This document shows positions 361 through 51,838 of a DNA stretch of 58,366 nucleotides, piece after piece. Source of the stretch: an uncultured Carboxylicivirga sp. (GTDB lineage Bacteria > Bacteroidota > Bacteroidia > Bacteroidales > Marinilabiliaceae); the NCBI GenBank assembly GCA_947491945.1, contig CANLLN010000029.1, positions 1 through 58,366 on the forward strand, written 5' to 3'. Made by a program: the position numbers and the translations under genes. Numbering within the stretch: position 1 is the first letter of the stretch; each line of letters begins with the position of its first letter. The notes under the pieces are model-generated. The model was not told the DNA's origin, did no database searches, and worked only from the letters and a program-made list of their open reading frames with translations.

Positions 361-3300
361 TTAGAAATCAAGTTTAACACCAAACACATAGTTTCTCGTT
401 CCAGGGAAAGCTCCGAAGTCAATGCCTCTTCGCTGTGGATCTTTATTGAAAGCCTGAACTTCAGGGTCATAACCAGGGTAATTCGTCCAGGTAAACAAAT
501 TCTGACCTGAAGCATATAGTCTCAGACTTTTCTTGTTTTTGAATCGGAAGGTATAACCAACATTGATGTTCTTTAATTTGATAAACGACCCGTCATAAAT
601 CTGACGGTCAGATACAATTGCTCTTTGTCCACCATCGGTGGCAGCTGCCGGGTTAGCTACTCTTGTTGTTTGACCAACAGCTGGGTTATAAGCCACTTCG
701 TAGGTATAGTCTTCTGTTACCTCATCATAAACGGGCGTTACAGTCAATGGTGCTATCCATGAATCATTATAAGCTTCAGTAGCTACATTGGTACTTTTCT
801 TCAAAGCATTTAAAGGCCATGAATCAACCCATAATATGTCACCACCTTTTTGGCCGGTAAACAATATGCTTAAATCCCAGTTTTTATAGCTTACGGTATT
901 ATTTATCGAAGCCGTAAAATCAGGGTTTGGATCACCGATCTGCACATAATCATCGAAATTGATGGTTTGAACATCCAATGGATTTCCTTCTTCATCATAA
1001 TCTACAGAGTGGTTGATGTATTTAATCTCACCTGCTGCAGCATCATTTATACCACTGGCTGCTGCCTCATCCCAATTGGCATACACACCATCCGTTTCAG
1101 CACCCCAGAAAATACCGAGAGGTTTTCCTTCCATAAACATAGATGGATAGGTTTTATCATAACCAACCGCAGGTCCTAACTGACGTTCAAGATTAGAATT
1201 TAGCTTCACTAACTTGTTTCGATTCACACTAAATGTTCCCAGAACGTTCCACTGCCAGTCTTTATTTCTAATTATATCACCACCAATTGTTAGTTCAATA
1301 CCTTTATTCTCAACTTCTCCAAAATTGTCTGTTCTCCAAGGATATCCATTTGAAGCAGGTAGATTTACTAGCTGCAATAAGTCGTGTGTCAGCTTGTAAT
1401 AAGCATCAAAGGTTAGATTTAGTCGCGAATTAAACATACCAAAGTCAAGCCCAACATTGTACTGATCAGTTGTTTCCCATGTTAAGTCAGGATTGGCCAA
1501 ATTCTGTTCAAAATAACCTACTACAACCTGACCATTAAAATTGTAACGGATAGGTGACATCACACCCAACGACTGGAAAGCTGCGATAGGGTTACTACCA
1601 GTTTTACCATACGACATTCTTAATTTAAGATTAGAAATAGATTCTACATTTTTTAAGAATGGCTCTTCAGATGCTCTCCAAGCTAAGGCTACAGAAGGGA
1701 AGAAAGCACTCTTTTTGTTTTCAGCAAACTTGGAAGAGCTATCCATACGTGAATTGACATCCACATAATACTTGCCTTTGTAGCTATAACCAACTCTAAA
1801 AAGGCCAGATAACAACCCGACTCTTGTAAATCGTGTTACAGGAACCATGATATCGGTTGCTGATTCAAAAGTATAGTAAGTGGTAATATCACTACCGTAT
1901 CCATAAGCCTTATTAAAAGTGGATCTAATATTATTAACCTCGTAGGTTCCGACCACAATTGCATCTACTTTATGCTGACCAAACTTTTTCACATAGTGCA
2001 AGTTGGCTTCGGCGTATGTTTTAATATTTTGAGTATAGGATTGTGTTGCTTCACCATTATTACGGCGACCTCGGGTTGTAAAAGTAGGATAATAACTATC
2101 TCGTAGACTCATTTGATAATTGACTGCCCCCTTAGCAGTAGCACTTAAATGTGGTGTTATTTTTCCAACTAAAGATAATGCCTGATTAAAGGTGATGGCT
2201 GTTTTCTCATCTTCCACATATTTAGCTAGCGTATAAGGGTTAGACATGATTTGACCTTCATTTAAGTCAGCATAAACATCATCATCCTGACCTGGCTCTA
2301 ACAAGTCAAATATTGGCTGAAAACGTAAAGCATTAGATACCACACTTCGGTCCTGATACATTTGACCATTCCCTACTGAAGACGCTCTTCCCTTGCCATA
2401 AGAAGCATTTGTTTTGGAGTAAATCTCCACCTTTTTATTAAAGGCTTTGCGCATGCCATTCATATTAAAAGTGGCACGCTTGTAATCTGTATTGATAATC
2501 ACCCCTTGATTATCAGACAAACCCAAACTAACTGATAGGTTACTATTCTGGTCACCTCCACGATAAGCCACATTGAAAGCCTTTGAGTAAGCTTTACGAT
2601 ACACCTCATCCTGCCAGTTAGTATTAATACCGGTTGTTGTTGGGTAAGGCAAAGTATAACCATCTAACTCCTCAAAGTTTTCCGGTGTTAAGTCCTGTGT
2701 GCCATCAAACACCATTCCGTCACGACCAGGATTGGTAATATCAATATACAATTGATTGATCGTACGCTGATTCATATACCCTTCGAATTGAGGTCCATTA
2801 AGCACATCAATTTGCTGGTTCAGCTCCGACATGGCAAAATCGGCTGTTACAGAAAATTGGTCTTTTGTACTTTTGCCATCAGCCTGCTTGGTGGTAATCA
2901 CCACAACACCATTCGCACCACGTGCTCCATAGATAGCTGTTGCAGCAGCATCTTTAAGCACTTCCATCTTCTCAATATCATTCGGGTTAAGGAAACTCAA
3001 GGAACTCTGAGACTGGCCAGAATTACTGTTCCCCTGAGCATCCTGAATCGGATCAATTGGTATACCATCAACTACGTATAATGGTTGTGTACCTCCTAAC
3101 ATCGAATTGGTTCCTCGAATGGAGATACTCACACCGCCACCTGGTTCGGAGTTTTCGTTAACTACCACCCCAGCTACCTGTCCTTGTAACATGCGCTCTA
3201 CTGAATTTGTGCGCACTTTTTCCATCTGATGAGAGGTGACCTGTGCCACAGAACCAGTCAGGTCACTCTTCTTCACATTAAAGTAACCTACACTCACTAC

Positions 3301-3606
3301 TACTTCATCCAATTCCGATATTTCTGGTTCAATATAAATGGTTAAGTTGGTCTCATCACCCACTGCTACTTCTTTTGTTTTCATCCCAATAAAAGAGAAG
3401 ACCAAAACATCTGCTTTTTTAGCTTTAATATTAAAATCTCCAGAAGTACCACTTATTGTTCCATTGGTAGTGCCTTTTATATACACCGTCACCCCTGGAA
3501 GTGGTTGGTTGGATTCTCTGTCTAATACCTTCCCTGAAATGTTTAGTTCTTGAGCAATCAGGCTTATTGGCACCAAGAACAATAATAACATTAATAGTTT
3601 TTTCAT
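361..3606 (-). CDS. SusC/RagA-type TonB-dependent outer membrane receptor
   Basis: Imports oligosaccharides across the outer membrane using TonB energy, normally as a complex with SusD. At 1081 residues it has full family length. A signal peptide (about 1-19, ending SLIAQ) is followed by a carboxypeptidase-D-like domain (about 20-95, GKVLDRESNQPLPGVTV), then a plug domain starting near ELDEVVVSVGYF and containing the AIYGARGANGVVVITTK signature. The rest is a beta-barrel that ends in an aromatic residue (VKLDF). It is fourth in a tight operon behind three putative glycan hydrolases, with gaps of 16 and 18 nt. Its SusD partner downstream is broken. Having SusC/D at the end of the operon is less usual than at the front. 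The substrate is unknown; sulfated polysaccharide is inferred from the neighbours. Confidence 0.95.
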   Translation of the reverse strand: MKKLLMLLLFLVPISLIAQELNISGKVLDRESNQPLPGVTVYIKGTTNGTISGTSGDFNIKAKKADVLVFSFIGMKTKEVAVGDETNLTIYIEPEISELDEVVVSVGYFNVKKSDLTGSVAQVTSHQMEKVRTNSVERMLQGQVAGVVVNENSEPGGGVSISIRGTNSMLGGTQPLYVVDGIPIDPIQDAQGNSNSGQSQSSLSFLNPNDIEKMEVLKDAAATAIYGARGANGVVVITTKQADGKSTKDQFSVTADFAMSELNQQIDVLNGPQFEGYMNQRTINQLYIDITNPGRDGMVFDGTQDLTPENFEELDGYTLPYPTTTGINTNWQDEVYRKAYSKAFNVAYRGGDQNSNLSVSLGLSDNQGVIINTDYKRATFNMNGMRKAFNKKVEIYSKTNASYGKGRASSVGNGQMYQDRSVVSNALRFQPIFDLLEPGQDDDVYADLNEGQIMSNPYTLAKYVEDEKTAITFNQALSLVGKITPHLSATAKGAVNYQMSLRDSYYPTFTTRGRRNNGEATQSYTQNIKTYAEANLHYVKKFGQHKVDAIVVGTYEVNNIRSTFNKAYGYGSDITTYYTFESATDIMVPVTRFTRVGLLSGLFRVGYSYKGKYYVDVNSRMDSSSKFAENKKSAFFPSVALAWRASEEPFLKNVESISNLKLRMSYGKTGSNPIAAFQSLGVMSPIRYNFNGQVVVGYFEQNLANPDLTWETTDQYNVGLDFGMFNSRLNLTFDAYYKLTHDLLQLVNLPASNGYPWRTDNFGEVENKGIELTIGGDIIRNKDWQWNVLGTFSVNRNKLVKLNSNLERQLGPAVGYDKTYPSMFMEGKPLGIFWGAETDGVYANWDEAAASGINDAAAGEIKYINHSVDYDEEGNPLDVQTINFDDYVQIGDPNPDFTASINNTVSYKNWDLSILFTGQKGGDILWVDSWPLNALKKSTNVATEAYNDSWIAPLTVTPVYDEVTEDYTYEVAYNPAVGQTTRVANPAAATDGGQRAIVSDRQIYDGSFIKLKNINVGYTFRFKNKKSLRLYASGQNLFTWTNYPGYDPEVQAFNKDPQRRGIDFGAFPGTRNYVFGVKLDF

Positions 3607-3622
3607 CAGATTATGTTTTTAG

Positions 3623-6034
3623 TTACTGTTTTATAAATTTTAAAGCAATCGACTGTAGCCCATCATTAATCATTAGCACATAAGTACCTGTTGGCAATTG
3701 ACTCATGTCAAGAAGTTCACTGCTATAGTTATTATACGATTTTAGTAATTGTCCCCTAAGTGTGTAGATGCTCAGCCGGGCATTTCTAAGCCCTTTCACC
3801 TTTGCATAGTCACTTACCGGGTTAGGAGTCATTTTATAGGATAATCTTTCCGTTTCAAAATTAGTTACGTTTGTTGTTGTATCAAACTGTTCCATCAGGA
3901 ATTCTGCTGCATGCCCCCAGGTGCCATCCGGTTCAATCAACCATTTCCCATCCATCCATTCATATAAAAATGAAGTTTCATATTCCACACCCTTTTCCCA
4001 GGTAAATCCATCGGGTGCACCTTGTTGACCAGAGCAGTATAAGTTCCACAAGTAGAAATATGGTAAATCCATAGCTAATGCCAAACCACACAACTTATCA
4101 TATTTAGTACGAATTTGTGAGCGACTATGACTCGAATAGGGAGCATTTTCGTTGATGGCAAATTCACCAATCTGAACAGACAGATCGCCATACTCACCTG
4201 TTGAAGTGGTGAAGTAATTAATCATCTCCAGCCCTGTCCACATGGCTGATGGAAATGGATAGTCGTTATTTTCCCATCCGCCATCGTAGGCCGACCAGGA
4301 GGCCAGGTCAATGCGGCAATGCGGTATCACATCCGCTGCCAGACAAGGGGTGTTATTATCCATCATGGTTAATCTCTGCCCATCTTTTTGCATCCATAAC
4401 TTATTGAGCTCTATCCCATGCATTACCCTTGCCGTGGCATCCGGAAATTCCTTTCGTGCTCTTTCCGTGCCTCTTTGACGAGCCCTGAACATACGTGCCA
4501 TACCTGCAATTTGCCATTCTACATCATCTGGTATCAGTGCTGGATCTTTCTCCCATAAAACACCTTGACCACGTAACATCCAGTCACCTTCCCAGTTTTG
4601 GTAAACGAAAGTCTTATCCAGATGTCCATAGGTTTCGAGCAGTTTTACCGTTAATTCGTACCACTGCTGCTCTTCATTCACATAAGAAGCATGCTGAAAA
4701 TCGGGTCCATCTTTATAATCTCCCTTATTTTTTGAAGTCACCCAAAAGGTATGAGTTTTGATATTAGAGCGACTGTATAAATCCTGTATCTCCGGCACAT
4801 CCAATAATTCCACCACCCTATTTACATTACTCCAGGTATGATTGAACGGATAGGCCGAACTCATCTTTCCGTTAATTGCCGACAAAGTTGTTTTAATGGC
4901 TGTTGAACCAAACTCTTGATAGTAGTCCAAGCCTTCGGTCATAAACGGTTTATCGGTAAAGTGATACCACCCAGCTATGTGCGAAGCTCCAAATATATCA
5001 CGAAGTGCTTCCTTCTCATTATTCACCGATGGCTTGTACTGATTAACCTGATTAACAATCTCTGAAGGCGGTGTTAAGGTTTCGCGATAATGTACACGAA
5101 CCTCACCATTATTTACCAGGCTAAAATTGGGGTTATCCAATGTGAGATTGGTAAAATTAATACCTTCTCCTAAACGCAATAAACCGCTTTGCGCAATTGA
5201 AAGCGTAAAGCCAGCGGCTTCCGACTTCTTATTTAAATTACCATTATTAATCATTAGTGTATAGATACTGCCTCCATCATTAATGGTGATGGACGAGCTC
5301 TCTCCATTACTTGGATTTTTAGTAAACAAACTGATATCGTTACAGACTATTAAACCATTTACAATTAAATTGGCTTTAGCTGTTGCTGAGCTCCATTGAT
5401 AGGTACTGCCTGTTAAACCAAGAGTACCTTTTACATAGATATACGAATAACGTTCGGTGGTTACTATTACCCTGTTATTTGACTTCACAACGAGGTTTTC
5501 ATCGCATACCAGATTATACAAATCAATCAACACATTTTTTTCGCCACTATCACTAAACATACTTAATGTGCCCGGATGAAAATAACCCTTACCGGTTATG
5601 TAAGTTGTGACATCCTGCAGATTCATGAAAATGCGACTATTATATTTGTATAACGAACCATCGCCCGAACTACCGGGCTGCACTCGACCAGATGAGAATG
5701 TGCCTTGACACTCAATACTACCGTTAATCACCAGGTCTTTGGCAAAATTATCGGTATCATGCCCCATGCTTAAACTTGCCGACTGATTAACTTTCAGATG
5801 TCGGCATAGTACAATGCGTTCTCCCGATACGCTTCCCTGTACATCGATGTATACTGAATGATTATTTTCAATTCGCACATCATCATCAGGTCCCGGAACA
5901 AAACCACCTGACCAAAGGCCCGGGTCGGACCAATTGCCACTTTTAACAGAGTATATAGCCCCGGAAAAATCAATCTGCGCACTAATATTCACAGCGTAGA
6001 ATAAACCTATTATTATGTATAGAATTTTCTTCAT
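3623..6034 (-). CDS. T9SS-secreted beta-helix plus NWEGDW-type putative glycan hydrolase
   Basis: 803 residues. A signal peptide (1-20, ISAQ) is followed by a G8-like or right-handed beta-helix region (about 25-320; GNWSDPGLWSGGFVPGPDDDV and many short Gly/Asn-rich strands). Residues about 350-720 match the two smaller downstream-numbered paralogues. Shared motifs are NWEGDW (Glu482), HGIELN (Glu542) and QIGEFA (Glu624), which I take as candidate active-site acids. The last 75 residues (about 730-803; MTPNPVSDYAKVKG to ALKFIKQ) form a T9SS sorting tail, so the protein is probably secreted or surface-attached. It is third in the operon, 14 nt after the preceding gene and 16 nt before susC. The fold and family are inferred from motif layout; I do not recognise a named GH family. 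Confidence 0.75.
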   Translation of the reverse strand: MKKILYIIIGLFYAVNISAQIDFSGAIYSVKSGNWSDPGLWSGGFVPGPDDDVRIENNHSVYIDVQGSVSGERIVLCRHLKVNQSASLSMGHDTDNFAKDLVINGSIECQGTFSSGRVQPGSSGDGSLYKYNSRIFMNLQDVTTYITGKGYFHPGTLSMFSDSGEKNVLIDLYNLVCDENLVVKSNNRVIVTTERYSYIYVKGTLGLTGSTYQWSSATAKANLIVNGLIVCNDISLFTKNPSNGESSSITINDGGSIYTLMINNGNLNKKSEAAGFTLSIAQSGLLRLGEGINFTNLTLDNPNFSLVNNGEVRVHYRETLTPPSEIVNQVNQYKPSVNNEKEALRDIFGASHIAGWYHFTDKPFMTEGLDYYQEFGSTAIKTTLSAINGKMSSAYPFNHTWSNVNRVVELLDVPEIQDLYSRSNIKTHTFWVTSKNKGDYKDGPDFQHASYVNEEQQWYELTVKLLETYGHLDKTFVYQNWEGDWMLRGQGVLWEKDPALIPDDVEWQIAGMARMFRARQRGTERARKEFPDATARVMHGIELNKLWMQKDGQRLTMMDNNTPCLAADVIPHCRIDLASWSAYDGGWENNDYPFPSAMWTGLEMINYFTTSTGEYGDLSVQIGEFAINENAPYSSHSRSQIRTKYDKLCGLALAMDLPYFYLWNLYCSGQQGAPDGFTWEKGVEYETSFLYEWMDGKWLIEPDGTWGHAAEFLMEQFDTTTNVTNFETERLSYKMTPNPVSDYAKVKGLRNARLSIYTLRGQLLKSYNNYSSELLDMSQLPTGTYVLMINDGLQSIALKFIKQ

Positions 6035-6048
6035 AACCTATCTACAGT

Positions 6049-7257
6049 TTAGAGCTTACCTAATACTTCGATCCCTTTCTTTTTGAAGACCTCATATTCT
6101 GGATAAACTTTGTGCTCATTTTTATAGGTTTTCAAGAACTCATTCATCTCTGAATAGAAATTCTGATGCAGATAATAAACCGGCTTCTTTTTACCTTCTT
6201 CACTAATCATCGACATCCCCTTGGACACTCCTGCGTTTGTGTATTCATTATTGTACATCTCCCAATGCAATGCAAAAGGCAAATTCAAATCCAGACTCAC
6301 TCTCATCATTCGTTTAGTCAGAAAGAGCTGTTTAGCATCATCCTGATTGGCATTGGTTTGATAGCCATACTCGCCAATATATACACGACGTTTAAAAGGG
6401 ACCCCATCTTTCTCAGCTAACTTACTCTCAATGTAGTCCATAGCTTCGCCTACGGCTTTCTTTAACTCTAAGTAGGTTGGCTTCTTCTTGATGATTTCGT
6501 AGCTGGAGTAGGACACCAAATCAGGGTTTGTATGTGGTAGCACACTATTGACAATGCATTTTTTACCTTCTAGACCTTTAGTCACAAGGTTAAGTTCAAT
6601 ATAGTGCCAAACCTCAACCTCTTCATGAGGTGTATTCCTTTTAGCATCATCCACTGCAATCTGACGAATATTGAACCAGTCAATCATACCTTGAACCTTC
6701 TCATCGGACGGAATATTGTCTCGTTTACCCAAACCGTGTAGCAACCAATCGCCCTCCCAGTTCCCAAACAAAAAGGTTTTGCCGGACCCACTGTAGGTTT
6801 TCAATACATACTCTGTCAGTTCATACATCTCCCGATATAGCATCAACTTCTCCTCTGAAGTTAAGCCATCCTGCCATTTGGCTTCTGTAAACGTATGAAC
6901 CCAGGCGAATATGTATTTAAAATCCATATCCATGACCTTCTGGTAGTCTTCTTTCTTCTTAATTAAATCTAGTGTTGTTTTAATACCTGAAGCCGGTTTC
7001 ATGCCGTAAGATTTGGCATAATTTTTACCCATTGAAATCTTCAGGATATTGGAGCCCATACCTTGAATATGTTTGGCCTGCTCAACAATAAACGATTCTT
7101 TGGTAAACTTATAGTTAGCACCAATGGCTTGAGTTCCGCAAACAAAGTTATAGTCTTCCAGTTCAGGCGCTTTATCAAATATCTCTCCATCTACTGTTTG
7201 GGCCTTAAGCTGGCCCAATATAACTATGACAACTAATAAGATGTTTAAAGCTCTCAT
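6049..7257 (-). CDS. NWEGDW-type putative glycan hydrolase (402 aa)
   Basis: Secreted protein with a signal peptide at about 1-20 (LGQLKAQ) and no sorting tail, so probably periplasmic. Motifs line up with both neighbours: YNFVCGTQAIGANYKF near the N-terminus, FGNWEGDW (Glu168), HYIELNLV (Glu221), NPDLVSYSSYE, VYIGEYGY (Glu296) and LHWEMYNNE. The pattern of alternating strands with a conserved Glu late in the sequence resembles clan GH-A (beta/alpha)8 hydrolases, where the nucleophile lies on strand 7. That is inference; the family is not recognised. Gaps are 6 nt upstream and 14 nt downstream, which supports one transcript with its paralogues and susC. Confidence 0.75.
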   Translation of the reverse strand: MRALNILLVVIVILGQLKAQTVDGEIFDKAPELEDYNFVCGTQAIGANYKFTKESFIVEQAKHIQGMGSNILKISMGKNYAKSYGMKPASGIKTTLDLIKKKEDYQKVMDMDFKYIFAWVHTFTEAKWQDGLTSEEKLMLYREMYELTEYVLKTYSGSGKTFLFGNWEGDWLLHGLGKRDNIPSDEKVQGMIDWFNIRQIAVDDAKRNTPHEEVEVWHYIELNLVTKGLEGKKCIVNSVLPHTNPDLVSYSSYEIIKKKPTYLELKKAVGEAMDYIESKLAEKDGVPFKRRVYIGEYGYQTNANQDDAKQLFLTKRMMRVSLDLNLPFALHWEMYNNEYTNAGVSKGMSMISEEGKKKPVYYLHQNFYSEMNEFLKTYKNEHKVYPEYEVFKKKGIEVLGKL

Positions 7258-7263
7258 CGTTCT

Positions 7264-8517
7264 CTATTTTAATGCATTAAAATTCAAAGCCGCTTCCTTA
7301 AATATTGCCAAGGATGGTACATGGTTATGCTCTTTATAATACCTTTTGACAAATCGCTGACTTTCTTTATAGAACTTATTATGAGTGTACCAAATTTGCT
7401 GTTTCTTACCCTCGTCATCAATCATCCAGTAGCCCACTTGTTCGCCAGTTTCCTTCTTTATTTCGTTGTTATACATTTCCCAGAACAAAATAAAAGGAGA
7501 CTCCCACTCCAAGCCTGCTTTAATCACCCATTTAGCACGCTCATCCTGCACATCTTCGCCATGACTCATAAATGGGCTGCCATATTCGCCTATCCAAACT
7601 CGCTTACCTTCAGGGAGTCCTTCTTTTGCAGGCAAATACGATTCAATGTAATCCAAAGCTGTTTTAAGCTTCGTGTTCAACTCAGCTTCTGTTTTAGGCG
7701 GGTTGGTTACATCGTAAGTTGAATAGGATACATAATCAGGATTGACCTCTTTTAACACAGAGTTGGTAAGCACTTTATCATTCAAATCGATGCCACGTTG
7801 AACCAAATTCACCTCCATGTAATGGTATATTTCTACATTTTGGTATTCCGTATCACGCTTGGCATCATCAATGGCTTTTTGACGTATTTTAAACCACTTT
7901 TTGATACCTTCCAAGGTAGCTTCATCTGCTGGCTTTGTACGGTCGTAGTCCCAACGCAAGTGCCAGTCACCTTCCCAGTTACCCAGGTAAAATACCTTAC
8001 CGGAGTTGTTAAACTCCTTCAGCATGTATGTTGTTAAATCGTATAATTCATCATACAATGCCTCAGCATAGCAATCTTCATAGCCACCAATGAACTTAAC
8101 TTGCGTGGTGTCGTTTTTCTGCCCAACAGGTTCGGGTAAATATTGCGAAAAGCCATACACCCAAATGTGGTAATATTTAAAATCCATGTTCAACACTTCT
8201 TTAACCGATGGCTCCAGCTGTGCCAGTTTTGTTAAAGAAGTGATCTCTTTATTCTCGGGTAAACCATAATTCTCAGTACAATAACGAGGATGCATCGAGA
8301 ACTTAAGCAAGTTGGAGCCCATGTCTTTTATCTGTCGTGCCGTTTCCACCAACATGGATTCTTCGGTGAATTTGTATTTCGACCCAACTGTTTGTGTGCC
8401 GATCATATAATTATAATCGTTAATCACTTTTTGAGAAACGTCATCTTTTTTTTGTCCGGCCAATGCCCAGGCACTCACCAGTATGACCAACGCGATGACA
8501 AAATAGATAATCTTCAT
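7264..8517 (-). CDS. NWEGDW-type putative glycan hydrolase (417 aa), first gene of operon
   Basis: First gene of the five-gene operon. An N-terminal hydrophobic signal (about 1-21, ending WALAGQ) without a lipobox Cys suggests a periplasmic protein. It shares with the next gene the blocks YNYMIGTQTVGSKYKF, MGSNLLKFSM, LGNWEGDW (Glu182), YHYMEVNLV (Glu235), YVSYSTYD, VWIGEYGS (Glu311) and LFWEMYNNE. Spacing between the three Glu residues is 53 and 76, nearly the same as in the 402-residue paralogue (53 and 75), so the two arose by duplication but have clearly diverged. A clan GH-A type hydrolase is the best guess. Upstream lies a 340-nt non-coding stretch that should hold the operon promoter. 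Confidence 0.75.
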   Translation of the reverse strand: MKIIYFVIALVILVSAWALAGQKKDDVSQKVINDYNYMIGTQTVGSKYKFTEESMLVETARQIKDMGSNLLKFSMHPRYCTENYGLPENKEITSLTKLAQLEPSVKEVLNMDFKYYHIWVYGFSQYLPEPVGQKNDTTQVKFIGGYEDCYAEALYDELYDLTTYMLKEFNNSGKVFYLGNWEGDWHLRWDYDRTKPADEATLEGIKKWFKIRQKAIDDAKRDTEYQNVEIYHYMEVNLVQRGIDLNDKVLTNSVLKEVNPDYVSYSTYDVTNPPKTEAELNTKLKTALDYIESYLPAKEGLPEGKRVWIGEYGSPFMSHGEDVQDERAKWVIKAGLEWESPFILFWEMYNNEIKKETGEQVGYWMIDDEGKKQQIWYTHNKFYKESQRFVKRYYKEHNHVPSLAIFKEAALNFNALK

Positions 8518-8857
8518 ATTACTCGTTTTTCTTTATAGTTATTGACAATTTCATTTTTAGAAGTACATATTCACATTCATCCATTGATTACGCGATGATG
8601 TACTTTCACGATTGCAATATGAAAAACAATAAGAAAACAAGGGTTTGAATGCTGTGCAGATAGGTTGAATCTCCAACCGAGCAAGATAAGACACTAATTC
8701 ACTTGCACTTATCAAATTTAAACATGCTATAAATTATACATGTAACATTAAGTTTGTTATCCACTAATATCCTTTTTACACAAAATATAGACTCATAAAA
8801 AATGCGGATAAAACAAAAGTCCTCCGCATTCATATTTTAAACTTCAGTAGTTGACTA
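8518..8857. other. intergenic region with operon 5' end and upstream terminator
   Basis: No gene seen. On the minus strand it leads into the NWEGDW/susC operon. A TAAATTTG match to the Bacteroidota -7 box (TAnnTTTG) lies at 8713-8720, but I see no TTG at the right spacing, so it is a weak promoter candidate. An 8-bp inverted repeat (AAGTACAT at 8561-8568, ATGTACTT at 8598-8605) lies 44 nt before the start codon and could be a 5' UTR hairpin or operator. The terminator of the upstream sensor gene is listed separately. Confidence 0.45.
8796..8830 (-). terminator. rho-independent terminator of the hybrid sensor gene
   Basis: An 8-bp stem (AATGCGGA at 8801-8808 with TCCGCATT at 8823-8830) is followed on the minus strand by a T-run (8796-8802 complement). 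It sits 28 nt past the stop codon of the sensor gene. Confidence 0.7.
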
Positions 8858-11800
8858 TCAACCCTGACTTTCCATAAACTCTTTGGGTGTTTTACCATGG
8901 AATTTTTTGAAAACCGTGCTAAAATATTTGGGATCATGAAAGCCCGATTCGTAGGCAATATCAGCAATGCGCATATTCTTACCCGATTTAAACAACTCTA
9001 CGGCATGGTTAAGTTTGATCTTAATCATCAGGTCAGATGGTGTCATACCGGTTAAGCCTTTTAACTTGCGAAAGAGGTTTGAACGACTTAAGCCCAATTG
9101 CTCACAAAGCACATCAATGGTAAAATCACGGTCCGTCATATTCTCTTTGATGAGCTGAACCGCATTGGACAAGAACTCTTCATCGGGTGACGCATGCGTT
9201 GCTTTCTTTTCTTCACCAGACTGCTCAACCTGCCCGAGGGCCTGCCGTGTACGCAACAGGTTATTAATGGTGGCTTTTAACACTTCAATGCTAAAGGGCT
9301 TCTCCACGTAGGCATCGGCACCCACTTCCAATCCCTCCACCTTATCGTCAACACCAATTAAGGCCGTAATCATCACCACAGGGATATGACTTGTTTTAAA
9401 ATTACTTTTTATCACCTGGCACAATTCTTTGCCATTCATTTGTGGCATCATCACATCGGTAATGATGAGATCAGGATTTTTCTCAACCGCTAACACCAAG
9501 CCCTCTTTTCCGTTGGGTGCCTCAATAATCCGATAGTTCTTAGCCAACTCCGATTTGATGGTTGCCCTTAAATCATCGTTATCTTCCACCAGCAATACGA
9601 GTTTATTCTCACCAATGATATCAGCTACTTTCTGTCCTTCATCAACATGGCCCTCTTCCAGCATGATTTCATCACTAACAAAATGCTGCGAACCCATGGG
9701 CAGTTCAACTGAAAATGTGGACCCTATGTTTTCTTTACTTTCCAGACAAATCGTTCCATGGTGCAACTCAACAATGCGCTTGGCCAGCATTAAACCGATG
9801 CCTGTACCGGCTATACCTTTTAAGCGTACGTTTTCACCACGTGAGAACCTGGAAAAAATCTGCTTCTGCTGCTTTTCGGGCACGCCTAATCCATTATCGA
9901 TAAAATCAATCCTGAGCTTTCCATCTAACAAATGGGTTTTCACCTTAATATGCCCACCTTCTTCACCGTACTTAATGGCATTGGATATTAGATTATTAAA
10001 CACACGACTAATTTTTACTTTGTCGACCCATAGGTTGACTTCATGAGATGACACCTCGATATCCATTGATTGTTTTTCCAGTAGGGGTTGAAAATCACGA
10101 CTTATGGAGTAAAGTAGTTTACCCAAGTCAACCTTCTGCACCTTTAGTTTTAACTTCTGACGTTCGGCTTTTTGGAACTCCAGAAGCTGAGAAACATATT
10201 CATTAAGACTACCGGCGTTACGCATAATTAACTCAATGGCGTCCTTACTCTTCTCATCTTTCGGCAACTGCTCAACCAGTAGCTGAATTAATGATATGGG
10301 CGTACGAATATCATGCGCCACATTCACAAAAAACTGTATTTTCTCATCACTAAAGCGTTGTTTCTGCCTGGCCTGGTTGGTCATAATAACAAGTATTAAC
10401 AAACCTAATATCACGAAGACATAAACCACAAAAGCCCACCACCTTAACCATAATGGATTTAAAATCTTAATATCCAATCGGTATTGCGAATCGAGGTATT
10501 TACCATCGGGAGAAATGGCCTTTACAATCAATTGATAAGTACCAGGCCGAATTTTTCGATAGCTGGCTCTTCGTTTATCCGATGAAACAATCGCTTGCTC
10601 ATCATAACCTACCAGCTGCCACTCAAAACTGCTTTTACGCGGCCCATGCAATTCCACCACTTCAAAAGTAAATGCCAGTGAATTTTGATTATAGCTTAAC
10701 TCCAACTCATCGAGATAATTCACATCTTTCAATACTGTTAATGTGTCAGGACTTAAACCGTTAATTAAAAATTCCGACACTCGTAGTTTGCCCCTATTGT
10801 TATATTCCCTCACGCTATCGGGGTGAAAAATAACGGCTCCATCAGGACCTCCAAATGCCAGTTCTCCATTCTTCAATTTGGCAGATGCTCCAAAACCAAA
10901 TTCGTTAGCTACAATACCATCCTTTACATCGTAATGCCTAAAGTGTTTTTTATTCATGTCGAGCTTCCAGAGCCCTGTGCTGGCTGCCAGCCATAGATTA
11001 TTGGAATTATCATCCAACAAAGAGTATACGATTCCAAGTTGCTTATTGCTTTCTGGATTTAATTGCTCAACGTCATTAGATTGTAAATCATAGACAAATA
11101 AACCTTTATCAGTGCCAATCCACAAATTATGTTGGTCATCGTAAAATAATCCATATACATTAGTAAGTACATTATTCGCTATTTCAGTTGAATATGTCAA
11201 TCTTCGATGACTACCATTACGCTTATTTAACTCAAATACACCATTCATGCCACCAACGTATATGGTCTCATCTTTTCCCTTGACAAAATACTTGGCACTT
11301 CCGACCGGATAGGTTTGATGCAGTCTACCACCAACAAAACACATAACCGGGCCATCGGTCCCCCCTATCCAGACCTCATCATCGTCAACAAAAGTGGTAA
11401 ATACCAATTTATGAGGCGGTTTTTCAATTAATTTCCTAGAATCTGATAAGCCTTTGAGTGGATCAAACTCAATGATTCCTTCACCATATGTTCCCAACAA
11501 CAGATGCCTATGGTACCCTGAGATAGACAACACCGGAATATCTGATAACTGATTGAATCGATTAAAGGTAGACCATTCACCGCTTGGTGACAAACAACTT
11601 AATCCATCTTCTGTACCAAACCAAATATTACCATAATTATCCTCACAGATTGAGCGCACACTGTTGTTGTGCAAACTATTCTTCTCATTTAAAATGTGTG
11701 CTATATTCTTAAATGGGTTATTACTATTGTAAAGTATATCAATCCCGGTTTCTCCTGAGGCCAGCCAATAGGTATTAAACTCATCGATGTAAATATCATG

Positions 11801-12685
11801 AATACTATTTTGCCGAATGCTATTTGTATTATCCGGATCATGCGCAAGTTGCTGTTTGACCTTATGTGATTTATCCATAATAAATAAACCTAACCTGTCT
11901 ACAGCAACAACTGCCTCTCCTTGTTTATTAAAGGCAATACTTCTAACGGTATTATACCTGTCAGCCGATCTAAATAAATCCGGGTGATGTAACTTGTCCG
12001 TCTCATTAATAATGAACAAGCCATCATTTTCAGTACCTACCCAAAGCTGATTGCTCTCATCAATATCAAAGTGAATAATATCCATCTTCTCCAGATAGAC
12101 TTTACTCTTTGTAAGTTGTCCATTATTAAAATGGAAGATATGAATACCTTTCGATGTGGCTAAATAAATCTTCCCATCTTTTACTTTAAGGTGACGGTTG
12201 TACGTTAACTCAGGAAAAATCACTTCGCTAAATTGATTTGAATTGATATCGAACACCAACAAACCATTGAGCATGCCAATAACCATAAGGTTGTCATCTA
12301 CCAGACAAGCAGAAATAAACTCATGTTCATAGGCTTCTCCAAGGGTTAAAAAATCGTCATATTCATATTGGTACTTATAAATACTACCGCCAGTGCTTAT
12401 TACAAAAAGCTCACCTTCATGATTGATGAGCTCAATAACCCTGTTACCCCATTTGTTTTTCTTTTGATTAAAGCTATAGTTGCGAACTTCATACCCGGAG
12501 TGGCGGTTCAGACCATTTGATGTAGCAATCCACATATAACCCAGTGAATCCACTTCAAAGTCATTGACATAACCATTACTTAAGCCATCCTCAACACCCA
12601 AGTGCTTGATTTCATAAGCACCTGCAGTATGGCTCAAAAAAAATACAATTAAAAGTAAATACCACTTCCCAACTGCTGCTTTCAT
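8858..12685 (-). CDS. hybrid two-component system (HTCS) sensor/regulator
   Basis: A one-protein signalling system that senses a PUL-derived oligosaccharide in the periplasm and activates PUL transcription. 1275 residues: signal peptide about 1-23; two-component-propeller repeats about 25-620 (many WIGT/WFGT-type strands); Y_Y_Y domain about 655-742; one membrane helix about 748-768; HisKA with the phospho-acceptor in VAHDIRTP (His791); HATPase_c about 885-998 with N-box SNAIKYG and the GTGIGL glycine motif; receiver about 1027-1145 with Asp1077 in ITDVMMP; AraC-type HTH about 1165-1275. All key residues are present. It ends at a terminator and follows a sulfatase gene by 38 nt, so the two may share a transcript. 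It probably controls the NWEGDW/susC operon next door. Confidence 0.95.
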   Translation of the reverse strand: MKAAVGKWYLLLIVFFLSHTAGAYEIKHLGVEDGLSNGYVNDFEVDSLGYMWIATSNGLNRHSGYEVRNYSFNQKKNKWGNRVIELINHEGELFVISTGGSIYKYQYEYDDFLTLGEAYEHEFISACLVDDNLMVIGMLNGLLVFDINSNQFSEVIFPELTYNRHLKVKDGKIYLATSKGIHIFHFNNGQLTKSKVYLEKMDIIHFDIDESNQLWVGTENDGLFIINETDKLHHPDLFRSADRYNTVRSIAFNKQGEAVVAVDRLGLFIMDKSHKVKQQLAHDPDNTNSIRQNSIHDIYIDEFNTYWLASGETGIDILYNSNNPFKNIAHILNEKNSLHNNSVRSICEDNYGNIWFGTEDGLSCLSPSGEWSTFNRFNQLSDIPVLSISGYHRHLLLGTYGEGIIEFDPLKGLSDSRKLIEKPPHKLVFTTFVDDDEVWIGGTDGPVMCFVGGRLHQTYPVGSAKYFVKGKDETIYVGGMNGVFELNKRNGSHRRLTYSTEIANNVLTNVYGLFYDDQHNLWIGTDKGLFVYDLQSNDVEQLNPESNKQLGIVYSLLDDNSNNLWLAASTGLWKLDMNKKHFRHYDVKDGIVANEFGFGASAKLKNGELAFGGPDGAVIFHPDSVREYNNRGKLRVSEFLINGLSPDTLTVLKDVNYLDELELSYNQNSLAFTFEVVELHGPRKSSFEWQLVGYDEQAIVSSDKRRASYRKIRPGTYQLIVKAISPDGKYLDSQYRLDIKILNPLWLRWWAFVVYVFVILGLLILVIMTNQARQKQRFSDEKIQFFVNVAHDIRTPISLIQLLVEQLPKDEKSKDAIELIMRNAGSLNEYVSQLLEFQKAERQKLKLKVQKVDLGKLLYSISRDFQPLLEKQSMDIEVSSHEVNLWVDKVKISRVFNNLISNAIKYGEEGGHIKVKTHLLDGKLRIDFIDNGLGVPEKQQKQIFSRFSRGENVRLKGIAGTGIGLMLAKRIVELHHGTICLESKENIGSTFSVELPMGSQHFVSDEIMLEEGHVDEGQKVADIIGENKLVLLVEDNDDLRATIKSELAKNYRIIEAPNGKEGLVLAVEKNPDLIITDVMMPQMNGKELCQVIKSNFKTSHIPVVMITALIGVDDKVEGLEVGADAYVEKPFSIEVLKATINNLLRTRQALGQVEQSGEEKKATHASPDEEFLSNAVQLIKENMTDRDFTIDVLCEQLGLSRSNLFRKLKGLTGMTPSDLMIKIKLNHAVELFKSGKNMRIADIAYESGFHDPKYFSTVFKKFHGKTPKEFMESQG

Positions 12686-12723: not shown

Positions 12724-14271
12724 TTAATCGTTCGCGTTTGGCTGAAATAATTTTGTATGTCCTTTAGTTGCACCATTTCGATTCTTATGGCGCTTCCACC
12801 TCAACTGTTCAGCGCGTTGAATGGCTTTCCGATCCTCTTCCTGCATCCACTGATTCAAGGCATTCAGATTATCACGCACCTTAAAAGCCGATAAGACATA
12901 ATCATTGGTAGCCTGCATCTGACTTTCCAACTCTTGTCTTAGTTTTTCGGCAATATCCTTGTATGCCGGGTCATCAATCAGGTTATGTAAGGCATCCGGA
13001 TCCTTCTCATAATCGTAGAGTTCCTCAACACTGCGATACACCCAATGCTCGTAGCGTTCTTTCACCTCTTGATTGGAAGTGGCTTGTGCTTTCATATATT
13101 TATGGCTGGCATAAGCATCGGCCGAACACTTAAACGGATATTTACCCGTTGCCCAGGCATTAAATACATAGCCATATTTTTTTGTCAATACGGTTCGTGA
13201 AGGCCGTGGTACACCACCTGCATTCTCATCAAATTGGGCAAACACATATTCTGAGCTTTTTAATTCATTGCTTTTCAACGCATCGTAAAACGACAAACCT
13301 TCCACTCCTGCAGGCTGTTTAATACCGGCCATATCCAACACAGTAGGCATAAAGTCAATGGCCGAAATCATATTATCCGTATTGACGGCACCTGCCTCAA
13401 CCTCGCCGGGCCAGGCCACAATCCATTGGGTTCGGATACCATTGGGATAAACTGATGACTTGGCAAACGGTAAGGGCATACCATGGTCCGATACAAAAAT
13501 CACAATGGTATTCTCATGATAGGGGCTCTTCTTCAGCACCTCAAGAATGGCACCCACGCAATCATCTCCACGTTTCACCGAGTTGTAGTAATTAAGCACC
13601 TCTTGTTTTACTTTTGGCGCATCCGGTAAAAAAGCCGGTACATCCACCTCATCGACAGAGAACACTTTTGAAGGTACAAAAGCATCAAATCCTTGCTTTT
13701 TCGATTTGACATCGTTGAAAAAAGGCTTGTGCGGGTCGGCCACGTTCACCACACAATAAAAAGCTTGCTTTTCTTGCTCTACTGTGGAAAGAAATTCCTC
13801 CAATTGCTGACCATATGAAATGGCGGAGCGTTTCTCGGCGCCTTTAAAATCGATCTTAACATCCCAATACTTTTCAAAATCGGGACTCAAACTACTATCT
13901 GCTGCTTTGTTGATGACCCCGGTAATATATCCACTCTCTTTTAATACCTCGGGCAGGGTTTTAAAACCAGCTTCCACATAAAAGAAACCACGCATACCGC
14001 TTTGATGTGGGTAACGGCTGGTTTGAAACACACTGCGCGATGGTGAACAATTGGAAGCCTGTACATAGGCCTGTTCAAAACGCATTCCTTCCTCAGCCAG
14101 GCGGTCAATATGAGGTGTTATTTCTGGTATCTGGCATCCATAAGCCCCAATGGAGTTCCAGTTCATATCATCGACAGTGATGAATAAGACATTGGGTTTG
14201 TTTTTTGATGATGCGAACATCATTAAACCAAATGCGCATAATAAGAGGGTTATAAAATAGATCCGTTGCAT
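12724..14271 (-). CDS. sulfatase, heparan N-sulfatase (SGSH)-like, secreted
   Basis: Formylglycine-dependent sulfatase of the alkaline phosphatase superfamily, removing sulfate esters or sulfamates from glycans. 515 residues with a signal peptide about 1-21 (FASS; no lipobox). Metal-site residues DD34-35 lie in ITVDDMNWN. The modification motif is NCSPSRS with Cys75, so a maturation enzyme encoded elsewhere is required. VSDHGMPLP gives the later metal ligands. The order of motifs and the C-terminal YDYEKDPDALHNLIDDP block resemble the SGSH-like branch. That is only a similarity by eye and does not prove N-sulfatase activity. It is divergent from the esterase gene and lies 38 nt before the HTCS gene. 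Confidence 0.92.
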   Translation of the reverse strand: MQRIYFITLLLCAFGLMMFASSKNKPNVLFITVDDMNWNSIGAYGCQIPEITPHIDRLAEEGMRFEQAYVQASNCSPSRSVFQTSRYPHQSGMRGFFYVEAGFKTLPEVLKESGYITGVINKAADSSLSPDFEKYWDVKIDFKGAEKRSAISYGQQLEEFLSTVEQEKQAFYCVVNVADPHKPFFNDVKSKKQGFDAFVPSKVFSVDEVDVPAFLPDAPKVKQEVLNYYNSVKRGDDCVGAILEVLKKSPYHENTIVIFVSDHGMPLPFAKSSVYPNGIRTQWIVAWPGEVEAGAVNTDNMISAIDFMPTVLDMAGIKQPAGVEGLSFYDALKSNELKSSEYVFAQFDENAGGVPRPSRTVLTKKYGYVFNAWATGKYPFKCSADAYASHKYMKAQATSNQEVKERYEHWVYRSVEELYDYEKDPDALHNLIDDPAYKDIAEKLRQELESQMQATNDYVLSAFKVRDNLNALNQWMQEEDRKAIQRAEQLRWKRHKNRNGATKGHTKLFQPNAND

Positions 14272-14486: not shown

Positions 14487-15392
14487 ATGAAGTATGTAAC
14501 GATTATTTTAACCTGCCTGGGACTATCTTTACTTTTTACACTTAACGCCTGCGATAAGGATTCAAACAAAGCAATTGAAGAAGAAAAAGAGTTACCTGCA
14601 GAATCGCCTGACAATAATAACAAAGATAAGGTAGCTGATTATTCAGATATTGAAAGCCTGCCTGCAGATACCGGTGGCGAACAGCTAGCCTACCTCAAAG
14701 GCACTACAGCAGCCAGTTATGGCTATTATGCCTATACACCTTCTGCATACCACCAGGGAACAGAAGAATACCCATTGATTATTTCTTTGCATGGTGTCGG
14801 AAAGCGAGGTGATGGCACTGATTTAGATGATTTGAAGAAGGTGCTTTGGCTAGGACCAGGTAACCTGATAAAGAAAGGTGAGTGGAATCCTACGTATCCG
14901 GCCATTGTGGTAGCTCCCTTAACAGCCACCAACTGGGATGCCAAGAAAGTACATGCCTTTATTCAATACCTGATGGACACATACCGGGTTAATAAGCAAC
15001 GCATTTATTTAACCGGCAACAGCATGGGTGGATTCGGCACCTGGAACTACATTCAGGAATATGGAGACCAAGCACTTGTAGCCGCCATCATACCTATCTG
15101 CGGAAAAGGAAATCCTGATTTAGCTCATCAGTTTACTAACATTCCAGTTTGGGCATTCCATGGGATTGATGATAACACAGTGGATGTGTATGGAAGTATT
15201 GACATGGTTAAGGCCATTAAAGCTTTGGAAGTGGATTTGACTTACACACCTAAATTAACGCTTTACCCTGGTGTAGGCCATGATTGCTGGACCATGACTT
15301 ACGATGGCTCCGGCATGGGACAAGGTAACCCCAATTTTGATGCTTTTGACATGAGCATTTACGATTGGCTGTTCAGGTATAAGAAGGAATAA
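14487..15392 (+). CDS. lipoprotein alpha/beta-hydrolase, probable carbohydrate esterase
   Basis: Likely removes acyl groups from polysaccharide at the cell envelope. 301 residues with lipobox LNAC (Cys22), then an acidic, low-complexity linker (about 28-60) common in surface lipoproteins. The alpha/beta-hydrolase core (about 70-300) shows the oxyanion-side ISLHGVG, nucleophile elbow GNSMGG (Ser179), an Asp in HGIDDN (Asp228/229) and His265 in GVGHDCW. This is the prolyl-oligopeptidase/PHB-depolymerase-like layout also used by several carbohydrate esterases. The bond cleaved is not shown by sequence. It leads a two-gene plus-strand unit, 29 nt before a sulfatase, and is divergent from another sulfatase, which supports a role in removing side groups. 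Confidence 0.8.
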   Translation: MKYVTIILTCLGLSLLFTLNACDKDSNKAIEEEKELPAESPDNNNKDKVADYSDIESLPADTGGEQLAYLKGTTAASYGYYAYTPSAYHQGTEEYPLIISLHGVGKRGDGTDLDDLKKVLWLGPGNLIKKGEWNPTYPAIVVAPLTATNWDAKKVHAFIQYLMDTYRVNKQRIYLTGNSMGGFGTWNYIQEYGDQALVAAIIPICGKGNPDLAHQFTNIPVWAFHGIDDNTVDVYGSIDMVKAIKALEVDLTYTPKLTLYPGVGHDCWTMTYDGSGMGQGNPNFDAFDMSIYDWLFRYKKE

Positions 15393-15421: not shown

Positions 15422-16999
15422 ATGAACAAAACATTTAAATATGGTTTTGCAGGGCTAATCCTGATTATTCTGGGAGCTGCTTGTAATCCCTCAAAGCGGA
15501 AAAAAGCGGAAAAGCACCCCAATGTATTGGTGATTATGTGCGATCAGCTGAATTACGAAGCCTTGAGTTGCTATGGCGGCCCTGTGCCAACGCCCAATAT
15601 CGATCGCATTGCCAAAGAAGGCGTACGATTTACGAGAGCCTATAGCACAACTCCTTTTTGCTCCCCTTCTCGAGCCTCTATTGTAAGCGGACTTTATCCT
15701 CACCAGCATGGTGTAGCCCATAACCTGGGGTTCAAGCAAAAAGAAGGCATCACCATCAAGGATGAGACAACTGGTAAATTATTGAATAAAAAGGGGTATA
15801 AAACCCACCAATTTGGAAAGTGGCACATTGAGAGCGATTCCTTAAATTATTTGCCTTACTATACCGACCAGTACGACTATGGCTACCAGTACAAAAAAGA
15901 AATGGAAGACAAGGGCATTACCGTTCGTAAAGATGATGGTAAGGATTGGATGAATTTTTACAATCAGTTTTGGCCGGTAGAAGTGAGTCCTTATATGAAG
16001 GAGAAGAGAAACTATCTTGAGTCATTGTGGGCGGATCATAGTAATAAAGACTTTCCTATTAAAATGGGTCGATTGAGATTAGAACAAGAGGACTGGATCG
16101 ACGATAAGTTAGCTAGCCTGACGGTTGATAGAATTCGAAGAGCTACATCCAGTAACGATCCGTTTATGATTACGACCTCTTTCATTTGGCCTCACGACCC
16201 TAACTTTGTCCCGGATCCTTACTATGACATGTTTAATCCCGATTCGTTACAGATGCCTGCAAGTCAATTTCCGGATAAGAAGTTTGATAAGTCATGGTCA
16301 CGAAGAATGGTAAAAGGCTATGGAGACGAAGGCCTTAAAGAGTTTATGCGTATCTATTATGGTGCTGTCAAATACCTCGACGACAGGGTAGGTAAGATAT
16401 TGGCGGAACTGGAGAAACAAGGTGTGATGGATGAAACCCTTATCATCTTCACCTCCGATCATGGCGATATGATGGGAGGCCACGGCATGGTATGGAAGGT
16501 GAATGAATCATTTTACGAAGAACAGGCGGCTGTCCCTTTTATTATCCGTTACCCTAAGCTCCTAAAAGCTGCTGTTTCAGACATACCCGTGAGCCTTGTT
16601 GATATGAAACCAACCATTCTATCGGTGACGGAAACAGCATTTGAACAAAAAGTGGCAGGCGTCGATCTTATTCCTTTCCTCACGGGAGAAAAGGCTCGAT
16701 CATTGGCACCTAAATACTCATTTTGTGAGCGCATTAAACCTAATCCCAATGGTAGTCGCGAAGTGCTGGAAGATGCCAAAGGGTCGTTTATGATTCGTAA
16801 TGAACAATATAAGTTAATCATCTACCATGATGGGGATCGCTTCTTTTATGATTTAAAAAATGATCCGAATGAAACGGAAAACATGGTTAATGACAGCGCT
16901 TACAAGGAACAAGTCCTGGAGTTGGAAAACGCCATGCAAAACTGGTTAGAAGATACTGGGTGGAAAGGTCAGAAAGTGAAGTACATGTACCGAACATAG
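15422..16999 (+). CDS. sulfatase, lipoprotein (525 aa)
   Basis: S1-type sulfatase anchored by a lipid: signal with lipobox LGAAC (Cys21). The formylglycine motif is FCSPSRAS with Cys80, followed by GLYPHQHGV. VIMCDQLNYE holds the N-terminal metal Asp (the second Asp of the usual DD pair is replaced by the preceding Cys or following Gln, as in some arylsulfatases). TSDHGDMMGGHGM carries later metal ligands. The C-terminal DLKNDPNETENMVND block is typical. It follows the esterase gene by 29 nt and ends at a strong hairpin terminator, so esterase and sulfatase form a two-gene unit. The exact sulfate position cleaved cannot be read from sequence. Confidence 0.92.
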   Translation: MNKTFKYGFAGLILIILGAACNPSKRKKAEKHPNVLVIMCDQLNYEALSCYGGPVPTPNIDRIAKEGVRFTRAYSTTPFCSPSRASIVSGLYPHQHGVAHNLGFKQKEGITIKDETTGKLLNKKGYKTHQFGKWHIESDSLNYLPYYTDQYDYGYQYKKEMEDKGITVRKDDGKDWMNFYNQFWPVEVSPYMKEKRNYLESLWADHSNKDFPIKMGRLRLEQEDWIDDKLASLTVDRIRRATSSNDPFMITTSFIWPHDPNFVPDPYYDMFNPDSLQMPASQFPDKKFDKSWSRRMVKGYGDEGLKEFMRIYYGAVKYLDDRVGKILAELEKQGVMDETLIIFTSDHGDMMGGHGMVWKVNESFYEEQAAVPFIIRYPKLLKAAVSDIPVSLVDMKPTILSVTETAFEQKVAGVDLIPFLTGEKARSLAPKYSFCERIKPNPNGSREVLEDAKGSFMIRNEQYKLIIYHDGDRFFYDLKNDPNETENMVNDSAYKEQVLELENAMQNWLEDTGWKGQKVKYMYRT

Positions 17000-31190: not shown

Positions 31191-31218
31191 TGTATTAACG
31201 ATTTTAGAATACATACTG

Positions 31219-48398: not shown

Positions 48399-51838
<3,440 letters not shown>

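Follow-up and report, generated by a model that had tools for sequence, protein, structure and literature searches.

NWEGDW proteins of a Carboxylicivirga polysaccharide utilization locus: a probable new glycoside hydrolase family with a predicted clan GH-A-type barrel

Introduction

GH195 is described, in the part of the report available to us, as a sulfated α-1,3-mannan endo-hydrolase of Polaribacter and Ochrovirga (PMC13063451), and GH130 loci of marine Flavobacteriia that also carry GH26 are read, in the available part of another report, as non-sulfated β-mannan loci (PMC6298971). Here, we analyze three consecutive genes whose products share the motif NWEGDW (P0003, P0002, and P0001, with 417, 402, and 803 residues, respectively) and which lie close to sulfatase and GH130 genes on a 58,366-nucleotide stretch of DNA from an uncultured Carboxylicivirga sp. 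(contig CANLLN010000029.1 of assembly GCA_947491945.1, positions 1–58,366; hereafter referred to as the window). C. mesophila JCM 18290 matches the window with 99.4% identity over 18.4 kb. Judged by sequence, the three proteins belong to an apparently unnamed family, “unnamed” being meant relative to the Pfam, NCBIfam, and PDB sequence libraries; it is a probable new glycoside hydrolase (GH) family.

The NWEGDW locus resembles the GH195 system, as far as the available text describes the latter, in that a putatively new GH occurs in a Bacteroidota locus with sulfatases and in that one copy is borne by the type IX secretion system (T9SS); the substrate of GH195 is a sulfated mannan. The two differ, in a comparison by description, in that GH195 is presented as a distant relative of GH99 that is accompanied by GH92, (PMC13063451), whereas GH130 and a symporter accompany the family in the NWEGDW loci, where no unnamed gene reaches GH92 size. 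The likeness to the flavobacterial loci lies in the combination of GH130 with SusC/SusD; the window locus differs from the account given in the accessible text in having sulfatases, and no GH26 was found in it (PMC6298971).

The family provides an active-site prediction for proteins of several bacterial phyla and of haloarchaea that have no Pfam or NCBIfam name. At the protein level, they resemble clan GH-A enzymes such as PslG, the exo-β-1,4-mannosidase of C. acnes, GH164 Bs164, and GH5 (with the exception of GH164, fold matches that we take to be clan members) in having a predicted (β/α)8 barrel, a Glu near the end of strand 4, a Glu in strand 7, and a conserved Trp after strand 8. The family also offers a depolymerase candidate for the recurring type of locus with sulfatases and GH130, and a defined enzyme would allow enzymatic measurement of such sulfated glycans.

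Predicted fold of three paralogous proteins

The initial annotation, made from the sequence alone, had pointed out that the three minus-strand open reading frames (ORFs; Table 1) share NWEGDW, E(V/L)N, and IGE(Y/F) blocks, and this is correct, as are the Glu-to-Glu spacings it gave: 53 and 76 residues in the 417-residue protein, 53 and 75 in the 402-residue protein, and 60 and 82 in the 803-residue protein. The window contains exactly three stretches of DNA coding for NWEGDW (4580–4597, 6745–6762, and 7963–7980), against none in 100 shuffles. Paralogy is borne out by 39% identity between the 417- and 402-residue proteins (E = 7e-97); the 417- and 803-residue proteins are distant yet clearly homologous (22% identity, E = 2e-15). 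When P0003 was searched against its own genome, only the three window copies came up.

Structure prediction had been proposed as a check on a suspected clan GH-A layout, and the predicted models show such a barrel, with conserved Glu residues at strands 4, 5, and 7. The AlphaFold2 model of P0003 (mean predicted local distance difference test score 95.6, predicted template modeling score 0.92) is a (β/α)8 barrel with strands at residues 39–42, 70–75, 115–120, 175–179, 229–236, 262–266, 307–312, and 343–345. In the model of P0001, a barrel of the same kind, with the same Glu layout, spans residues 348–662, behind an all-β domain and before the sorting domain. Searching the PDB with the P0003 model gave 175 matches at E ≤1e-3 (best, 3.6e-7), headed by PslG (template modeling [TM] score 0.52, 12% identity). 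Glycosidases, by title or name, account for 49 of the best 50 of these 175 matches, the remaining one being a β-1,2-glucosyltransferase; the first ten include an exo-β-mannosidase and GH164 β-mannosidases. The 50 matches listed for P0001 are barrel glycosidases by title, and its N-terminal domain received no identification in this search; taken alone, that domain scored 21.4 bits against the G8 profile (cut-off 22.9). We regard the clan-level fold of the family as well predicted by these models and the case for the three proteins being hydrolases as strong.

Conservation and putative active site

Relatives were collected by scanning genome contigs with two motif patterns, one of which holds NWEGDW, so that the conservation of this motif is inflated in the sample; the 231 pattern hits gave 198 confirmed relatives, the best 80 of which, corresponding to 78 loci, were used. 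Members found without the motif pattern also show HWEGDW, NWEADG, NWESDN, and HWQGDW. For the conservation analysis, 150 ORF hits were reduced to 120 non-redundant members by removing those with fewer than 280 aligned residues or more than 95% identity, and 111 of these, together with the three window proteins, made up the structure alignment (114 members).

Gly67, Trp181, Asp184, Asn237, Gly310, Glu311, and Trp346 (P0003 numbering) are invariant in all 120 non-redundant members. Lys72, Glu182, and Glu235 each vary once (119/120 for both Glu residues, in a sample that is partly motif-selected), and Asn180, two residues before Glu182, is found in 107. In the P0003 model, Glu182 lies three residues past strand 4, and Glu311 lies within strand 7. 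Positions at strands 4 and 7 would place the family in clan GH-A, by the argument made for GH164 in the accessible text of PMC7105311. We infer that Glu182 and Glu311 form the catalytic pair and that the chemistry is retaining. Of the three Glu residues that the initial annotation had singled out, all are conserved as claimed, and probably only two are catalytic. The third, Glu235, marks a difference from the clan GH-A enzymes named above: strand 5 carries an additional Glu that is near-invariant, together with an Asn that never varies.

Three subfamilies in one cassette

A quick tree, with support values from the Shimodaira–Hasegawa-like approximate likelihood ratio test (SH-aLRT), separates a P0003 set (17 rows, support 99), a P0002 set (30 rows, support 99), and a P0001 set (14 rows, support 100, on a branch of 1.56). 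The three copies are consecutive, in identical order and on the same strand, in 12 of the 78 loci (L014–L017, L021–L023, L025, L029, L030, L033, and L037, the first copy of the last being cut by the contig end). Because each set spans both Marinilabiliaceae and Flavobacteriaceae and because the order is the same in 12 loci, the copies are three old subfamilies that travel together and not the product of recent tandem duplication. In the window, the gaps between P0003 and P0002, P0002 and P0001, and P0001 and SusC measure 6, 14, and 16 nt, and this spacing suggests that the four genes are co-transcribed.

Genomic context and candidate substrate

The initial annotation had listed three sulfatases, a probable esterase of the α/β-hydrolase type, and SusC near the three genes; all are present as described, and the locus additionally holds a symporter and a GH130, which that list lacked. 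A SusD and another sulfatase would follow past the window end, as seen in the related locus L014. Six loci (L021, L022, L023, L029, L030, and L033) share one arrangement, which runs from GH130 through symporter, sulfatase, and sensor to the three family genes and SusC; in L023 an opposite-strand esterase gene precedes the family genes. SusC is followed by SusD and a sulfatase in L022, L023, L029, and L030 and by SusD without a sulfatase in L033, while L021 ends in SusC. The absence of an alternative candidate depolymerase among the named genes of these six stretches is the best argument for polymer cleavage by the family. L017 carries a GH2.

Over the 78 loci, the neighbors include sulfatase (38), SusD (31), SusC (29), GH130 (20), GH2 (20), hybrid two-component sensor/regulator (HTCS; 18), and symporter (14), where each neighbor cluster took its name from at most a few representatives and most rare neighbors were set aside. 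The loci are not fully independent, as four pairs overlap on contigs (L020/L059, L043/L084, L048/L063, and L050/L071), and the denominators of 78 include L053, L070, and L080, where the family ORF was lost to an overlapping ORF in gene picking. GH130 occurs together with a symporter or an MFS_2 transporter in 17 loci. Genomes of the order carry on average about one GH130 (106 matches in 99 genomes, with four in the own genome), and we therefore estimate the chance of encountering one in a random 20-kb stretch at less than 1%.

The window GH130 matches PF04041 above the cut-off, its closest relative is a 1,2-β-oligomannan phosphorylase (5e-58), and LFPEKINGK...LHR is largely conserved in an alignment with 9fj8. 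According to the accessible text of PMC4599007, GH130 phosphorylases use intracellular phosphate, in contrast to secreted hydrolases of that family. Because of the kinship with the 1,2-β-oligomannan phosphorylase, we propose, as a lead, that the substrate is probably a sulfated polysaccharide with β-mannosyl linkages in its backbone.

Domain fusions support action on a glycan and fit an acylated one. In L060, L082, L087 (Vibrio sinus), and L088, of which L060 and L082 are close kin, the family domain is joined to a CBM2 that scores above the Pfam cut-off. A GDSL domain follows the family domain in L083, where it exceeds the cut-off, and in L060, where it falls just short (30.8 versus 32.9 bits).

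Placement and proposed pathway

A T9SS tail had been claimed for only one of the three proteins, and the 803-residue protein is indeed the only one with such a tail (TIGR04183, 1.9e-9). The division of labor between surface and periplasm that had been derived from it probably stands, with a refinement for the 417-residue protein, which by eye looks membrane-anchored rather than simply periplasmic. P0003 and its orthologues begin with a long hydrophobic stretch with no consistent cleavage site by eye, and residues 2–34 of P0003 were modeled by AlphaFold2 as a single helix; hence P0003 is probably anchored in the inner membrane, facing the periplasm. By eye, the start of P0002 looks cleavable.

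We consider it likely that the three proteins represent a new GH family with a retaining mechanism and a clan GH-A-type barrel and serve one polysaccharide utilization locus as its depolymerases. The 803-residue enzyme, exported by the T9SS, would cut the polymer on the cell surface, SusC/SusD would bring in the fragments, and the 402-residue enzyme and the probably inner-membrane-anchored 417-residue enzyme would shorten them in the periplasm, while the sulfatases remove sulfate and the esterase removes acyl groups. The symporter would then carry the final small glycoside to the cytoplasm, where GH130 would phosphorolyze it. Cleavage would proceed by double displacement, with Glu311 as the nucleophile, Glu182 of the NWE sequence as the acid/base, and Glu235 in a supporting role. 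A bolder version, which we advance only tentatively, is that an unnamed clan GH-A-barrel family with a shifted acid/base step (Asn-Trp-Glu) does all the polymer cutting in a widespread pathway for sulfated β-mannosides, with three ancient paralogues at the surface, in the periplasm, and at the inner membrane, and with symport and GH130 phosphorolysis at the end.

Alternative explanations

Several observations weigh against the proposal of a GH family with these roles. Relative to clan GH-A enzymes, identity reaches 15% at most and the best TM scores are about 0.5 (best 50 of 175 matches), which is similarity at the clan level only, and a profile-profile comparison (hhalign) against three GH5 proteins encoded in this genome yielded a probability of 1% (E = 0.056). 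An Asn directly before the acid/base is general in clan GH-A, with exceptions such as GH26. In the NWEGDW family, the residue before Glu182 is instead Trp181, giving Asn-Trp-Glu rather than Asn-Glu at strand 4, whereas the same-genome GH5 proteins have the Asn and so does Bs164, where Asn159 precedes the acid/base Glu160 in the available text of PMC7105311. Glu182 is replaced by Gln in Halobaculum, and Glu235 by Ser in Halomontanus. In the stretches fetched, 40 of the 78 loci have no sulfatase and 58 have no GH130, so the family is not tied to one substrate; the three nearest Carboxylicivirga loci show no GH130, their stretches ending before its place. Finally, the closest PDB sulfatases carry names for other glycans.

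These last points bear on the substrate, which has an appreciable, if lesser, chance of being a sulfated glycan without β-mannose, for example a galactan or an amino-sugar glycan, with a GH130 of other specificity. The closest PDB relatives of two window sulfatases, a GlcNAc-6-sulfatase and an S1_8A sulfatase, and the loci without GH130 are what one would expect in that case. A β-mannosyl polymer is favored by the occurrence of GH130 in 20 loci from both Bacteroidota and Verrucomicrobiota (including the overlapping L043 and L084), by the identity of the closest solved GH130, and by the recurring GH2, one representative of which is closest to a β-mannosidase and then to exo-β-glucosaminidases.

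It is unlikely, in our view, that the family has already been numbered in CAZy or published, so that the window proteins would be new members of a named family, even though CAZy adds family numbers steadily and a 2026 paper introduced GH195, found in similar bacteria in a locus for sulfated mannan (PMC13063451). The profile searches proposed by the initial annotation gave no strong match to a characterized family in Pfam, NCBIfam, or PDB sequences. For the three window proteins, Pfam returned nothing beyond two features of P0001, the T9SS tail and a G8 trace below the threshold, and NCBIfam only the P0001 tail (TIGR04183, 37.4 bits, cut-off 23); the 114 aligned members gave no convincing match in the catalytic domain with either library. 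Searching PDB sequences with P0003 gave one match at E = 1.4 and nothing usable, and the best hit of the 114-member profile (E = 0.18) was a GH5 xyloglucanase, aligned over three short stretches of at most 5.3 bits each. The GH5 profile PF00150 was not among the families matched by the 114 members at E = 0.01, nor was the GH99 profile PF16317, the latter bearing on GH195 only indirectly. In Halobaculum rubrum and Halomontanus rarus, the relatives on plasmids carry the annotation “hypothetical protein,” and a literature search that for the most part did not extend to subscription papers found neither a paper recognizable as dealing with the family nor NWEGDW itself.

Identity with GH195 was considered and not adopted, on the strength of its description in the available text rather than its sequence: GH195 is presented there as a distant GH99 relative partnered with GH92 (PMC13063451), while GH92 is present in 13 of 15 genomes and absent from two, and the twelve cassette loci contain no unnamed gene of at least 600 residues, where GH92 (about 750 residues or more in nearly all matches) would show. 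A few other library matches were weak and inconsistent among members and were taken as chance, namely GH25 for P0002 (14.6 bits against a Pfam cut-off of 27), T7 helicase for P0003, TatD (3/114), and YabG (1/114).

A further possibility, to which we give about as little weight as to an already numbered family, is that Glu235 on strand 5 serves as the acid/base in place of Glu182, within the same barrel and with an active-site layout that departs from clan GH-A. Glu182 does come one residue later than in the canonical Asn-Glu step, and Halobaculum has lost it while retaining Glu235; Halomontanus, however, has lost Glu235 while retaining Glu182, and the clan GH-A positions are those at strands 4 and 7. 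The Asn-Trp-Glu step, if catalytic, would be a test of how fixed the clan GH-A active site is.

That some copies, above all the divergent 803-residue type, are glycan-binding or regulatory pseudo-enzymes is very unlikely: the clade has the very long branch given above, and the Asn-Glu pair that follows Trp346 in most other members is found in none of its 14 rows, but all 14 retain the three Glu residues and a barrel is predicted for the 803-residue protein.

Distribution of the family

The best 80 of the 198 relatives come from Bacteroidota, Verrucomicrobiota, Lentisphaerota, Armatimonadota, Planctomycetota, and Pseudomonadota, the last including Sphingomonas and Vibrio sinus, and three haloarchaeal plasmids carry additional relatives. 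Four of 14 genomes of the genus carry the family, with three matches each; carriers number 7 of 71 genomes in the taxonomic family and 4 of 393 in the order, and in an even draw from the phylum the own genome was the sole carrier among 395. These counts show that the distribution is patchy and, within the genus, all or none.

Two haloarchaeal plasmid members (L010:11866–13770 and L011:11953–13068), one with Gln at the position of Glu182 and one with Ser at that of Glu235, have integrase genes nearby, and the L011 copy also has genes for a sugar epimerase and a Gfo/Idh/MocA oxidoreductase close to it. A member with all three Glu residues (L013:4989–6050) lies among virion genes on the viral contig IMGVR_UViG_3300021197_001580, with the end of a major head protein gene 2.5 kb upstream and the start of a virion structural protein gene 2.0 kb downstream (9 of 12 ORFs of the stretch scanned); it is perhaps a virion-borne depolymerase. 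The named phage collection contained no family member.

Other features of the window

Table 1. Coordinates of the NWEGDW genes, their proposed active-site codons, and the surrounding locus
Feature	Position	Strand	Remarks
SusC-type TonB-dependent transporter	361..3606	-	operon membership by spacing
P0001	3623..6034	-	803 aa; signal peptide-like start (by eye), β-rich N-terminal domain, NWEGDW-family domain, T9SS tail
P0001 T9SS type A sorting domain	3626..3829	-	TIGR04183
P0001 catalytic barrel domain	3863..5029	-	profile match, residues 336–724
P0001 N-terminal all-β domain	5030..5977	-	weak G8 match below cut-off
P0002	6049..7257	-	402 aa; signal peptide-like start (by eye) and NWEGDW-family domain
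P0003	7264..8517	-	417 aa; N-terminal hydrophobic helix, then NWEGDW-family (β/α)8 domain
P0003 Glu311 codon	7585..7587	-	strand 7; proposed nucleophile
P0003 Glu235 codon	7813..7815	-	strand 5; supporting or rival acid/base
P0003 Glu182 codon	7972..7974	-	after strand 4; proposed acid/base
Terminator-like hairpin and U-run	8800..8831	-	between sensor gene and operon
Hybrid two-component sensor/regulator (HTCS)	8858..12685	-	
S1 sulfatase	12724..14271	-	closest PDB chain S1_8A sulfatase 9bb9 (3.4e-41)
α/β-Hydrolase, probable esterase	14487..15392	+	
S1 sulfatase	15422..16999	+	
S1 sulfatase	17402..18883	-	closest PDB chain N-acetylglucosamine-6-sulfatase 5g2v (1.3e-92)
Sodium:solute symporter (SSF)	18896..20530	-	
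GH130	20560..21573	-	closest to 1,2-β-oligomannan phosphorylase; no signal peptide by eye

The terminator-like hairpin has a z score of -2.26, with equally good folding in 7 of 200 shuffles, and was not among the sites listed by a consensus scan. A promoter scan of the window gave 35 sites where 27.5 were expected (SD 5.8), which is not telling.

Two more carbohydrate loci lie within positions 21955–56437. One contains a GH3, a GH5-CBM6-CBM35 protein with a T9SS tail, and SusC/SusD; the other contains a GH16-CBM4 protein, a hybrid sensor, a GH2, and SusC/SusD. At 48399–51514, a LacZ-type GH2 β-galactosidase appears as two overlapping ORFs in different frames with the LacZ_4 domain divided between them, which suggests a frameshift or a sequencing error. 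Two overlapping ORFs with PKD domains at 30012–32202 are possibly one frameshifted gene.

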